DNA of 26,894 nucleotides. Origin: a virus. The notes under the pieces are model-generated. The model saw only the letters and a program-made list of their open reading frames with translations, was not told the origin of the DNA and did not search any database. The stretch covers positions 1 through 26,894 of the IMG/VR virus record IMGVR_UViG_3300010354_000517; one strand, given 5' to 3'. Below are positions 5,054 through 23,570 of the stretch, one piece after another (position 1 is the first letter of the stretch; every line of letters begins with the position of its first letter). The translations under genes were made by a program, and so were the position numbers.

Positions 5054-6286
5054 TTAGTGGTTCTCGGCCCAGTTGAGGGTGGCCTTCACGTTCGAGGTGT
5101 TGTTCAGACTCGTGCAAACGAGCGAGAACGCGATGGGGTTGGCCCCATTGAGGTCGAGCGTGATGGGGTACTTGAAGTCAATCAACGACCCAATCTCTCG
5201 TGCGAAGCTGCCCTGAGCCGCGACTCCGAATCCCGAGGCCACGACGATGCCCCCCGTGATGGCCCCCGTCCCCACTCCGCTGTGAACTGCGTACTCGACC
5301 GAGGAGTCCGCCGTGTTGGCGTCTTGCCACACGGGCGCTCCCGTGAAAGTCGGCCGGTAGACAAGCTCCCAGAGGTTGTCGTTCGTGGTCGTGAGCATCG
5401 CGAAGTTGGCGGGAACCACCTTGATGCGGTTGGTGAGGCCCTTGAAGGTGAGCTTCGGACGCACCGAAAGGACAGCCTGCCGCGCCGTGACCCCGATTTG
5501 GGACGTGTAGCCGACTCCGAAGTACCTCGGCCGAGAAGCAATCAGGTCGCCGCCTTCTGACTGGACGGTGCTGCAAATCTGCTTCAGCGTTCCGGCTCCG
5601 CCCGTGCTCGTGATTTCGTAGCGCATCGGGAGCGCCGCCGTCGTCATGTAGACGGTGGGCCGGACGTTGGCGTTCTGTTCCTCGTGGCAGAGGATGGGGA
5701 AGCCGTCCGGCCCCCAGACCCCGAACCGCACGCGGCCGACGCCGAGCCACTCGATGTCCATCCAGAAGATGTTGGAGTTCTGCGGGGCAAGAGTGAACCC
5801 GCTAGGCCCCGAGCCGTTCAGCTTATCGACGTTCCAGCTTGCTTGCGGATACCGAAGAGCATCGGAGGGAGCCCCACTCACGCTGGAGCGGATGACGACC
5901 GCCATACCAGCCCCCGTCTGCTCGAAAAAGATGCCGTTGGCCGTGTCGAAGTAGCCGATACGCTTCGTGACGTTCGCCGCCGCCAAGCCAAAGGTGCCGG
6001 TCATGATGATGAGTTGGCTCTTGCCGGGCTCGTACCGGAAGTACTCGTAGGTCTGGCGGACAGCCGAGTCTCCCGCTCCCGTGACACTCAGGTTGGCCGA
6101 TGCCTCGGCCGCCGTGAACCCGATGGCTCCTGCGCCGGTAGTGCTCTCAGACCACCAAAGTTCGCCTCGCTCGTACTGGTTGATGGAATCGAAGAGGGTG
6201 ACGGGTTGGCTGACGCGCCACCGGGCGAAAGCGTCAACGCTACCCGTGTTCGCAGAGAGGATTTGTGTTTTCGGCCAGTACGTCAT
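5054..6286 (-). CDS. Virion fibre / receptor-binding-type protein (410 aa)
   Basis: The 410-residue protein begins MTYWPKTQILSANTGSVDAFARWR; the start follows a TGAGGT site. Around residues 75-105, the segment YEYFRYEPGKSQLIIMTGTFG is one I recognise from phage structural proteins of unclear exact role, often annotated as tail or receptor-binding proteins. It continues with a concanavalin-like pattern of strands and conserved aromatic residues (IFWMDIEWLGVGRVRFGVW). No catalytic motif is visible. It is flanked on both sides by fibre genes with small gaps, so a virion attachment role is likely. Confidence 0.7.
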   Translation of the reverse strand: MTYWPKTQILSANTGSVDAFARWRVSQPVTLFDSINQYERGELWWSESTTGAGAIGFTAAEASANLSVTGAGDSAVRQTYEYFRYEPGKSQLIIMTGTFGLAAANVTKRIGYFDTANGIFFEQTGAGMAVVIRSSVSGAPSDALRYPQASWNVDKLNGSGPSGFTLAPQNSNIFWMDIEWLGVGRVRFGVWGPDGFPILCHEEQNANVRPTVYMTTAALPMRYEITSTGGAGTLKQICSTVQSEGGDLIASRPRYFGVGYTSQIGVTARQAVLSVRPKLTFKGLTNRIKVVPANFAMLTTTNDNLWELVYRPTFTGAPVWQDANTADSSVEYAVHSGVGTGAITGGIVVASGFGVAAQGSFAREIGSLIDFKYPITLDLNGANPIAFSLVCTSLNNTSNVKATLNWAENH

Positions 6287-9963: not shown

Positions 9964-10142
9964 GTGGGGCCAAGAGATAGGAGTGGCGCTACGGCCAGCC
10001 ACTCCCGCGATGGTGGAGGGGGGCGACCTACCACACAGCGACGTAGCCGAACCGAGGATGGACCGTAGCTCTCCGCCTCGTACCGTTCCCAGCCGGTCTG
10101 GCAGCCTGGGCGAGGGCGACCCTGCTTGTGGGGGTCGCCCTT
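9937..10142 (+). ncRNA. Candidate structured small RNA (~205 nt)
   Basis: This 299-base gap between genes has no convincing ORF but holds an ordered set of hairpins: GCCCC/GGGGC around a 10-base loop (about 9951-9970), a perfect 8-bp stem GGAGTGGC (9980-9987)/GCCACTCC (9998-10005), a weaker pairing near 10011-10033, and a terminator (10114-10140). A type 1 promoter-like element ends just upstream. Promoter, structured body and terminator together suggest a discrete phage small RNA. No tRNA-like T arm is seen. It could be a regulatory RNA, or an mRNA leader for the GT51 gene if the terminator is leaky. Confidence 0.5.
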
Positions 10143-10191: not shown

Positions 10192-11823
10192 ATGAAGAAG
10201 CTAGCCTGGGCGCTCGCGGCTCTCGCGGTGTGCGCCCTCGGAGCCTACCTGTCGTTCCCCCGCATCGTCCGATGGCAGGTCGAACGCCGGTTTCCCGACG
10301 TGGCGTTCAGCGAGGTCGCGGTCACCTGGGGCGAAGGCACCCTGACGTTCACGGGGGTCGGCTTCGACCGTGGTTGGGTCAAAGGTAAGCTCGACCGTGT
10401 GACCTCCGACTGGGAGCGCACTCGCCTAACGGTCGTGGGCGGGGACATCGAGGTTGACCTCGATGCGCGCCGAGAAGGCACCGGGGAGGCGCAGAAGCGC
10501 ACCCTGGAAGCCTCCGGGCTCACCGTCCGCGTCAAGCGTGGCAAGCATCAGGCAACGCTCACAGAGGCCCGCCTGGAGGGCAGCCGGGTGTGCTTCAAGA
10601 CCGCCGTCGTCGTATCCCCACCGCTCACGGTCGAGGACGGGTGTGTCGAACGTGACGGCACCTCGGCGACCGCCGAGAAGGTGTCGGCCGCCGAGCTACC
10701 CGTGCAGGGGGTCGAGGTCGGGCCGGTTGTCGCGACTGGCGTCGAGGTCAACATCCAGGGCAAGAGTGCGAAGGTGAAGTCCGTCACGACCACCGTGACG
10801 CTCGAAGGGCAGACGCTCCCGGTTGAGGCTACGGGCGTCGAGGCCCAGCATGGGGAGACGGACAGCTTGAAGCTCGCGACCCTGCGGACCAAGCACCCGT
10901 GGCTCGCACCCGACTGGACGACCATCGAGGACGTGGCCGTGACGCGCGGCAAGGAAGTCACCGTCCAGGTCGGCCCGAGCACCATCCACGTCGAGCCCGA
11001 CACGCTGACCGTCTGGGGGGACGAGCCCTGCCAGACGTGGGCCTCGGCGCTCCCGAAGGCGCTCCAGACGCCCCCGCTCGACACCATGAAGCTCACGGGC
11101 TCGACGAGCTTCCGGGTCACGCTGCGGCCGAAGCCAAGCCTCACCATCAAGTCTGCTTGCAAGGCAACGTGCTCGACGATGCCCAACCTCCGGCGCGCGT
11201 TCCGGTACATGGCCTACACCTCGAAGGGTGAGCGGTTCGAGCGCACGAGCGGGCGAGGAACGAAGGGGTGGATGCCCATCGGGCTCATGGGGCACATGCC
11301 CGTGGCCGTCCCCGCGCTCGAAGACCCCGGCTTCGCGAGTCACCGGGGGTTCATCACGCAAGCGTTCGCGAACTCCCTGACCGACAACCTGAAGCAGGGG
11401 CGCTTCCTACGCGGGGGCTCGACCCTGACGATGCAGTTGGTCAAGAACCTCTGGCTGACCCGCGAGAAGACGCTCGGCAGGAAGGCCCAGGAGTTCCTAC
11501 TCGCGCAGGCGCTCGAATCCTGCTACCAGAAGGACGAAATCCTCGAACTGTACCTGAACGTCGTCGAGTTCGGGCCTGACCAGTACGGGGCAGCGGCGGG
11601 CGCGGAGCATTGGTTCAAGAAGGGGCCTGGCGAGCTAACGCCCACCGAGTCGTTCTGGATGGCGAGCATCCTGCCTCGCCCAAGCCGGACGGGACCGCCT
11701 ACCGAGGCCGCTCTCGCGCGCGTCGAGAAGCTCATGAAGAAGCTCGCCGAGAACGGGCGCATCCCCGAGTTCGTGTCTGAGGCGGACGATGCCGATGCCG
11801 CCGGATGGGAGGCTAGTCCATGA
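10192..11823 (+). CDS. Membrane-anchored GT51 peptidoglycan glycosyltransferase (543 aa)
   Basis: This enzyme would polymerise lipid II into glycan strands at the outer face of the inner membrane. Residues 4-22 form one membrane span after MKK, giving an N-in topology. About 330 residues of beta-rich periplasmic sequence follow (AsmA-like in character, uncertain). The C-terminal GT51 domain (about 360-530) shows all main motifs: ALEDPGFASHRG with catalytic Glu at about 377, GGSTLTMQLVKN (408-419), RKAQEFLLAQALE with the second Glu, and KDEILELYLNVVEFG (447-461). No transpeptidase domain is present. The form resembles myxobacterial/deltaproteobacterial monofunctional transglycosylases, so acquisition from a host is likely. 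It overlaps the dNMP kinase gene by ATGA. Confidence 0.9.
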   Translation: MKKLAWALAALAVCALGAYLSFPRIVRWQVERRFPDVAFSEVAVTWGEGTLTFTGVGFDRGWVKGKLDRVTSDWERTRLTVVGGDIEVDLDARREGTGEAQKRTLEASGLTVRVKRGKHQATLTEARLEGSRVCFKTAVVVSPPLTVEDGCVERDGTSATAEKVSAAELPVQGVEVGPVVATGVEVNIQGKSAKVKSVTTTVTLEGQTLPVEATGVEAQHGETDSLKLATLRTKHPWLAPDWTTIEDVAVTRGKEVTVQVGPSTIHVEPDTLTVWGDEPCQTWASALPKALQTPPLDTMKLTGSTSFRVTLRPKPSLTIKSACKATCSTMPNLRRAFRYMAYTSKGERFERTSGRGTKGWMPIGLMGHMPVAVPALEDPGFASHRGFITQAFANSLTDNLKQGRFLRGGSTLTMQLVKNLWLTREKTLGRKAQEFLLAQALESCYQKDEILELYLNVVEFGPDQYGAAAGAEHWFKKGPGELTPTESFWMASILPRPSRTGPPTEAALARVEKLMKKLAENGRIPEFVSEADDADAAGWEASP

Positions 11824-12912: not shown

Positions 12913-13689
12913 CTACTTCCCGACGTAGTTCTGAAGCAGACGGGCGAGCATATCCTTGTCCGTGAGCGTGACCGGCCCGAAGGCTTGCGTGGTTGGAGCC
13001 GTCGCCGAAGGCGTGGACTGAGGCGGGGCAGCAGGCTGAGACGGCGGAGCGGCCGGAGGCAGCAGAACCGAGTCATCGAAGCCCGGCGGGTGTGCCGAAT
13101 ACCACCTCATCGCGAGCCCCATCCGACTGGCGCTCTCCTTCGCGCCGCCCTGACACGAGCCCGAAGCGTAGACTCGGAGCCAGTCCTTCTGGGGCATCGA
13201 GGAGCACGCCCCGAAGGATAGCCGCAGTACGCGCAGCCCGGCTCGGATGCACTTCTTCCGGTCGGCGAGGATTTCCTTGGCCGTCCAGCCCTCCTGGACC
13301 TCGGACGGAGGGTCGCTCGGGAGCGCCGCACGGTCCTGCACGGTGTTCCACTTCATCGTCTTCCCCTTGCCGATGTTCAACTGCATCATGCACACGCTGT
13401 TGCCGTTGTCCCCCTTGGCGAGCTTGCCGAGGCCGAGGTCAACGTCGCGACGGAAGCCGCTCTCGTGGAACATGACACTCATGATGACCGACGAAGTTCG
13501 GATTTTCCCGTCCTTACCCTTGAAGAGTGGACGCTCGGTCTTGAGCACTTCCGCGATGTCGTTGGCAATCTGCTCGTAGCGAACCCTCGTATCGGCCGGT
13601 GTCTCCTTCGCTTCCGGGATGTAGTGCGGGCGGTCTACGGGAGCCTTCGAGAGCATGAAGGCCATCAACCATGCGATGTACTGTTGCAA
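12913..13689 (-). CDS. SLT-type lytic transglycosylase / endolysin-like (258 aa, TTG start)
   Basis: Residues about 66-108 show the goose-lysozyme/SLT signature: SVIMSVMFHESGF with catalytic Glu76, then GDNGNSVCMMQLNIG. This enzyme class cleaves the MurNAc-GlcNAc bond. The C-terminal 55 residues are Pro/Ala-rich, ending ARLLQNYVGK. I chose TTG at 13689 because GGAGGTG lies six bases upstream; the frame extends to an ATG at 13782, but that start has no ribosome binding site. No signal peptide is clear, so release would need a holin or the protein acts from the virion. It could be a lysis enzyme or a virion entry enzyme. Confidence 0.75.
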   Translation of the reverse strand: MQQYIAWLMAFMLSKAPVDRPHYIPEAKETPADTRVRYEQIANDIAEVLKTERPLFKGKDGKIRTSSVIMSVMFHESGFRRDVDLGLGKLAKGDNGNSVCMMQLNIGKGKTMKWNTVQDRAALPSDPPSEVQEGWTAKEILADRKKCIRAGLRVLRLSFGACSSMPQKDWLRVYASGSCQGGAKESASRMGLAMRWYSAHPPGFDDSVLLPPAAPPSQPAAPPQSTPSATAPTTQAFGPVTLTDKDMLARLLQNYVGK

Positions 13690-22313: not shown

Positions 22314-23570
22314 ATGTTCAAGAGCACCGCCGACCAGGACGCCCACGGGCGCTCCATCGCCCTCATGAAGTTCCTTTCGGGGGTCGCCAAGCGCCTCGGG
22401 GTGGCCGAACACGTCTACGTGGTGGGCGGCGCGGTGCGCAACTTCCTCATCGACCAGCCCATCAAGGACATCGACGTGGTGATTGACTCGGTGGCCGCCG
22501 GACACGACTCCGAGTGGTTCGCCCAGCAGGTCGCGAAGGCTATCCCGGCCAAGACGAACCTGACCACGAACAACTACGGGGTCGCCATCCTCTCCATCGA
22601 CCCCTCGTGGGTTCTCGACGGCTACTCGATGGCGGGACCGAAGAACACCGGGGAAACCATCGAGATTGCCAACGCCCGCAAGGAGTCCTACGGCGGCGAG
22701 ACGGGCAAGGGCTACAAGCCGCACCTCGTCGAGCCCGCGACCATCGAGGAAGACCTCGTGCGGCGCGAGTTCACGTTCAACACCCTGCTCTGGCGGCTCT
22801 CGGACCTCGCGGAAGGCCCCGACAAGGCCGAGGTCATCGACATGCTCGGTGGCCGCAAAGACCTCTCGGAAGGGGTCATGCGAACGCCCGTGAACCCCGA
22901 CAAGACGTTCTCGGACGACCCGACCCGGATGCTGCGGGCCATCAAGTTCGTCGCCAAGTACGGCTTCAAGGTGCCGCCCGACATGGCGGCGAGCATCCGC
23001 AAGAACGCTCCGAAGCTCAAGGGGATGCCCTGGGACGCTGTGCGGAAAATCGTCACCGAGGACATCCTCGACGCTCCGAACCCGCGCAAGTCCACCGCCC
23101 TGCTTCAAGACCTCGGGCTCGCCGACGTGCTCCGCGAGATGATGCAGGCGGAGCCGGGCTTCGCGGCAGCGATGGGCCGGAGCCTCTCTGACAAGGAAGC
23201 CCTCCTGCTACTCGACCTCCTCGACCTCGGGTGGGCCATCCGCACGCCCATCGGGTTCCTCGACAAGGCGGGCCAGAAGCGCCTCCGAGGCATCCTGCTC
23301 TCGCTGGATGACGCCGAGGGCAAGGCGTTCGTGGATGCGCTCGTGAAGCCGCCCATCAATCAGCCGAGGCTCTTCGAGGAGTACGGGGTGCCCCCGAAGG
23401 AACGGCAGCAGGTAGCCGGGCTAGCTCGGCAGTTCCTCCTTGACGACCCCACGCTTGCAGGCGATGCGCGCGGATTGGAGGCTCTCGTCGAGCAGGCTCT
23501 CTCTCGACGGATGCCCAAGGTAGCGGCCGAGCGGGTTGTCGCCCGTTTCGTAGCACGAGGTGGACGATGA
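22314..23570 (+). CDS. tRNA CCA-adding / poly(A) polymerase-type nucleotidyltransferase (418 aa)
   Basis: Class II nucleotidyltransferase motifs are in order: YVVGGAVRNFLID (35-47), KDIDVVID with metal-binding D52 and D54, RREFTFNTLLWRL, and FSDDPTRMLRAIKFVAKYGF. The C-terminal 180 residues are helical as in the family. Length is normal for a CCA-adding enzyme (about 400). It adds nucleotides to RNA 3' ends; CCA addition to tRNA is likelier than polyadenylation, but the two cannot be told apart by motif alone. It starts eight bases after the 116-aa gene and overlaps the endolysin gene by four bases, so it is expressed with both. It may repair tRNAs cut or trimmed during infection. Confidence 0.85.
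   Translation: MFKSTADQDAHGRSIALMKFLSGVAKRLGVAEHVYVVGGAVRNFLIDQPIKDIDVVIDSVAAGHDSEWFAQQVAKAIPAKTNLTTNNYGVAILSIDPSWVLDGYSMAGPKNTGETIEIANARKESYGGETGKGYKPHLVEPATIEEDLVRREFTFNTLLWRLSDLAEGPDKAEVIDMLGGRKDLSEGVMRTPVNPDKTFSDDPTRMLRAIKFVAKYGFKVPPDMAASIRKNAPKLKGMPWDAVRKIVTEDILDAPNPRKSTALLQDLGLADVLREMMQAEPGFAAAMGRSLSDKEALLLLDLLDLGWAIRTPIGFLDKAGQKRLRGILLSLDDAEGKAFVDALVKPPINQPRLFEEYGVPPKERQQVAGLARQFLLDDPTLAGDARGLEALVEQALSRRMPKVAAERVVARFVARGGR

Follow-up and report, generated by a model that had tools for sequence, protein, structure and literature searches.

Cutting and blocking of peptidoglycan are familiar phage activities, and the two active-site glutamates of the GT51 family of peptidoglycan glycosyltransferases have an established catalytic role. 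Among described GT51 proteins, the class A PBPs (PBP1a/1b/1c) have a transpeptidase domain, and MtgA (TIGR02070; S. aureus MGT, 3vmq/3hzs) has neither a transpeptidase nor a beta domain. AsmA-like proteins with a GT51 domain occur in Bacteroidota (e.g., Bacteroides fragilis, L054) and, as uncharacterised proteins, in Myxococcota (L117‒L146, mostly about 720‒1000 aa). The window (the whole 26.9-kb stretch of DNA analysed here) encodes a 543-residue protein, hereafter P0001, that can be compared with each of them. P0001 has the GT51 catalytic motifs in common with the class A PBPs, whereas the transpeptidase domain is absent from P0001 and from 23 related phage records. P0001 resembles MtgA in its fold and in carrying GT51 without a transpeptidase, but it scores below the cut-off of the MtgA equivalog model TIGR02070 (116.8 vs. 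182.65 bits). The Bacteroidota proteins have the architecture of P0001 and are homologous over approximately residues 279‒526 and more weakly beyond; however, they form a tree branch separate from the phage copies, and two of them (L005 and L007), as aligned, lack a Cys pair that is invariant in the phage copies. The Myxococcota proteins show the same order of anchor, beta domain, and C-terminal GT51 domain, match both ends of the phage profile, and are nearest in the trees, although the phage copies lack roughly 150‒200 residues of their beta region. Myxococcota bacteria have further GT51 proteins besides these. Phage lytic transglycosylases and endolysins likewise act on peptidoglycan, but by the opposite reaction and with an unrelated fold.

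The ORF of P0001 lies at positions 10192‒11823 on the plus strand with an ATG start, and its GC fractions at the three codon positions are 0.65, 0.50, and 0.87, the third being strongly GC-rich. Pfam Transgly (PF00912) covers residues 368‒517 (positions 11293‒11742) with E = 8.8e-42 and 143 bits against a cut-off of 27; it is the sole Pfam domain found in P0001, with no C-terminal transpeptidase. All GT51 motif residues are present, in the stretches E377-D378-P-G-F381-A-S-H384-R-G386, R-G-G409-S410-T411-L-T-M-Q415-L-V-K418-N419, G-R430-K431-A-Q-E434, and K447-D-E-I-L-E452-L-Y454-L455-N456. In a phmmer comparison with the A. aeolicus PGT (2oqo/3nb6; E = 2e-26), E377 and E434 pair with its two active-site Glu residues and are thus the predicted catalytic residues. 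Both are kept in 33 of 33 aligned phage copies, and nearly every GT51 motif residue is invariant across them (E377, D378, H384, S410, T411, Q415, K418, N419, R430, K431, E434, K447, Y454, and N456). The assignment of P0001 to the GT51 family is strong at the sequence level. The preliminary description had read this ORF as a membrane GT51 synthase with intact motifs and both expected catalytic Glu residues and had proposed the PF00912 search, and its reading holds.

The AlphaFold model of P0001, built from 14 phage homologues, has a mean pLDDT of 86.7 and consists of a helix (residues 2‒33), 19 strands (residues 41‒279), and a helical GT51 domain from residue 369. The single N-terminal helix coincides with a hydrophobic stretch and supports the previously proposed membrane anchor as a prediction (residues about 1‒33, positions 10192‒10290). 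Nearly every phage copy whose 5′ end is complete begins with a similar stretch. Since the helix has positive charges at either end, the positive-inside rule leaves the topology undecided. The all-beta domain (residues 41‒279, positions 10312‒11028) is followed by a stretch between C280 and C323 (positions 11029‒11160), a pair that is invariant in all 33 phage copies and may form a disulphide. In Foldseek searches with the model, PGT and MtgA structures rank first (TMt 0.75‒0.80 to the A. aeolicus PGT), and the beta part gives low TM-scores to bridge-like lipid-transfer and Lpt proteins, namely LPD-3, the Atg2 N-terminus, and LptD. DUF748 matches stay below threshold in some homologues, and a TamB match reaches E = 0.016. 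We regard the AsmA-like character of the modelled beta part as a lead, with membership unproven. The 330-residue region to which no role had previously been assigned consists of this beta domain plus a linker, and it resembles AsmA-like or bridge-type grooves.

The window is phage DNA, with virion and lysis genes alongside the GT51 gene. A virion structural protein (phrog_1645, 9.4e-90) is encoded at 5054‒6286 on the minus strand, and an endolysin with PG_binding_1 and M15 peptidase domain matches at 23567‒24349 on the plus strand; by gene content, the phage with the putative wall synthase thus also cuts the wall. The endolysin gene is adjoined by a tRNA nucleotidyltransferase gene of the CCA-adding type (22137‒23570, plus strand; PF01743, 2.4e-16). 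Immediately downstream of the GT51 gene is a deoxynucleoside monophosphate (dNMP) kinase (11820‒12482, plus strand; phrog_139, 1.9e-45), whose start overlaps the GT51 stop by four bases (ATGA), so the two genes are probably co-transcribed. Neither a sigma-70 promoter nor an intrinsic terminator was found upstream of the GT51 gene. The upstream neighbour, a VWA-domain protein (phrog_2426, 1.1e-177; 7589‒9892, plus strand), is matched by homologues from 498 phage records, many of which measure around 150 kb. It is conserved from Ackermann-type phages through to a 529-kb contig, and its gene is split into two ORFs in the L091 record. Right after the VWA gene (9890‒9985) lies a GC-rich hairpin (CCCCCTC...GAGGGGG) that has no T run and a folding z-score of −1.57. 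A small ORF at 9983‒10195 was rejected as a gene on composition. The Rfam search gave no match, and no tRNA genes were found in the window.

The window is a fragment, and many relatives with the same neighbours lie on contigs of 275‒529 kb. Recurring around GT51 in the huge-phage contigs are the dNMP kinase (a neighbour also in L091, L097, L098, L157, L159, and L160), the VWA gene (nearby in L097, L098, L105, L155, L157, L159, and L160), the endolysin, a LigT-like gene, the gene at 12913‒13782, and a carbamoyltransferase. The LigT-like 2H phosphoesterase (21434‒21958, plus strand), which has copies near GT51 in many contigs, shows a weak match to anti-CBASS Acb1 that falls under the cut-off (E = 0.0012). 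The 289-residue protein at 12913‒13782 (minus strand) has no Pfam or PHROG match, and copies 42‒54% identical to it are found near GT51 in at least eight huge-phage contigs. The aspartate/ornithine carbamoyltransferase (18805‒19779, minus strand; PF02729, 6.9e-46) has copies 61‒64% identical near GT51 in L091, L097, and L103, indicating that a pyrimidine or arginine pathway enzyme is carried by huge phages.

Relatives of P0001 were not found by single-protein scans and required alignments. When IMG/VR was scanned with successive alignments, the P0001-type architecture was found in about 43 contigs, counted as contigs of distinct size, a few of them near-duplicate assemblies and one recognised by PF00912 only; 27 of them are of at least 200 kb, and the largest is 618,736 bp. 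A pattern-based census of IMG/VR gave 37 P0001-type matches (median contig 231 kb) and 26 ordinary PBP-type matches or fragments (median contig 11 kb, longest 51 kb). The profile scores of the two types do not overlap, and every GT51 match on a virus contig longer than 51 kb is P0001-type. Of the first 16 records checked, every one had exactly one GT51. The PBP transpeptidase PF00905 was absent from all 23 related records searched, including one of 619 kb, an absence that would be very unlikely for bacterial DNA of the same total size. Together with the virion and lysis genes and the shared huge-phage neighbourhood, this led us to reject a host-chromosome artefact and supports the phage origin assumed in the preliminary description. 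The GT51 gene of the window is more than an isolated moron and belongs to a family. Among the 20 contigs of at least 184 kb that bear the VWA gene, some of them fragments, 11 carry GT51, which is therefore frequent across the wider lineage without being universal. Terminase PF03237 and phrog_1645 were rejected as common hallmarks because they are present in few records, and this scarcity is uninformative since huge-phage proteins diverge. GT51 matches in INPHARED were likewise set aside as phage precedents, those opened being ordinary PBPs beside bacterial genes or unannotated short contigs. The record MW495066.1 (L002; 274 kb, labelled Microcystis phage MaAM05), has secDF, secF, glyS, fabI, and gatD around a class A PBP, and this stretch looks like bacterial chromosome, not phage.

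Identity to P0001 among its first 13 relatives is 25‒49%, and L157/L160, the one pair close enough for dN/dS yet not near-identical, gives a value of 0.16, indicating purifying selection. In a careful tree with bacterial homologues, as previously suggested, 13 of 14 phage copies form one clade with 95/94 support whose neighbours are Myxococcota proteins, and 10 of these copies make up a core supported at 100/100. A larger quick tree unites 32 of the 33 phage copies, except for a single Polyangium row on a long branch. The L106 copy groups with Bdellovibrionota-like proteins, and a single origin of all phage copies is not rejected (AU test, p = 0.108). Myxococcota homologues of the same layout are found in 249 of 379 genomes at E ≤ 1e-50. 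Bdellovibrionota were rejected as the source of the main phage clade, their best match (1.8e-76) being weaker than that of Myxococcota (3e-103). A myxobacterium-like bacterium is the probable source of the phage GT51, which was apparently acquired long ago, and perhaps on two occasions if L106 is included; since the cellular homologues were collected with phage-derived profiles and cover few phyla, the donor assignment is provisional. In a search for a host link, run without a positive control, no homologue of the phage VWA protein was found in the 379 Myxococcota genomes.

Taken at the level of sequence, the GT51 gene is likely to encode an active, selected, membrane-anchored monofunctional synthase of a huge-phage lineage. 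We infer that P0001 is expressed, exported, and active, and we infer its purpose in the same way. The N-terminal helix would anchor P0001 in the inner membrane, where the periplasmic AsmA-like beta domain may position or feed the C-terminal GT51 domain. This domain would polymerise host lipid II into glycan strands via E377 and E434, and the strands would be cross-linked by host transpeptidases, since the phage has no transpeptidase. Long cycles and large virions are generally ascribed to large-genome phages. The preliminary description had raised resealing, cell enlargement, blocking of other phages, and countering of wall damage as possible roles. P0001 could serve to preserve the wall, or to sustain its growth, through a long infection that yields many very large virions, offsetting damage until lysis; of the purposes considered, we rate this one highest, though tentatively. 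Somewhat more speculatively, the huge-phage lineage might drive the growth of the host wall, its own lipid II polymerase keeping cells enlarging or sealed after host synthesis falters, as a counterpart to the endolysin.

An active synthase could instead be directed against competitors or act at entry, thickening or resealing the wall against the tail lysozymes of superinfecting phages or repairing the phage's own entry hole. The GT51 active-site residues are conserved and in several contigs GT51 lies close to the VWA and endolysin genes, which fits such a role, and this step is an established phage target: T4 Spackle is an inhibitor of the tail lysozyme (PMC7677548). However, a polymerase that diffuses in the membrane, and for which no targeting partner is known, would not obviously act locally at an entry site, and its occurrence in large-genome phages suits a long cycle at least equally, so that we consider a role in exclusion or entry unlikely. 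It is also conceivable that the groove carries the main function, P0001 remodelling the envelope as an AsmA-like lipid-transfer factor, with GT51 secondary. At low TM-scores, the beta domain is similar to bridge-like lipid-transfer proteins, and a part in phospholipid transport has been ascribed to AsmA-like proteins (PMC8593681, PMC8912898), which would fit. However, the invariant residues are nearly all in the GT51 active site, and the beta region is shorter than that of Myxococcota and the most divergent part of the phage proteins, making a primary lipid-transfer function improbable. Finally, a chance host gene with no role in infection (a moron, mis-binned bacterial DNA, or a transduced fragment) would accord with the ordinary PBPs and the short or dubious records among the other public phage GT51 matches opened, but it is very hard to reconcile with the deep phage clade, its invariant catalytic residues, the conserved neighbourhood, the absence of transpeptidases from 23 records, and the clean separation of phage-type and host-type matches by size.

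No earlier description of a GT51 synthase in huge phages was found in the open-access literature, including jumbo-phage reviews and surveys, an absence that is no proof. The active phage synthase favoured here suggests, from its sequence, that these viruses add to the host wall as well as breaking it. The conservation of a synthase with an apparently intact catalytic site over deep divergence implies that some phages need wall-making in infection, and the GT51 family offers a tangible way into the question of how cells infected by huge phages stay whole through long cycles.
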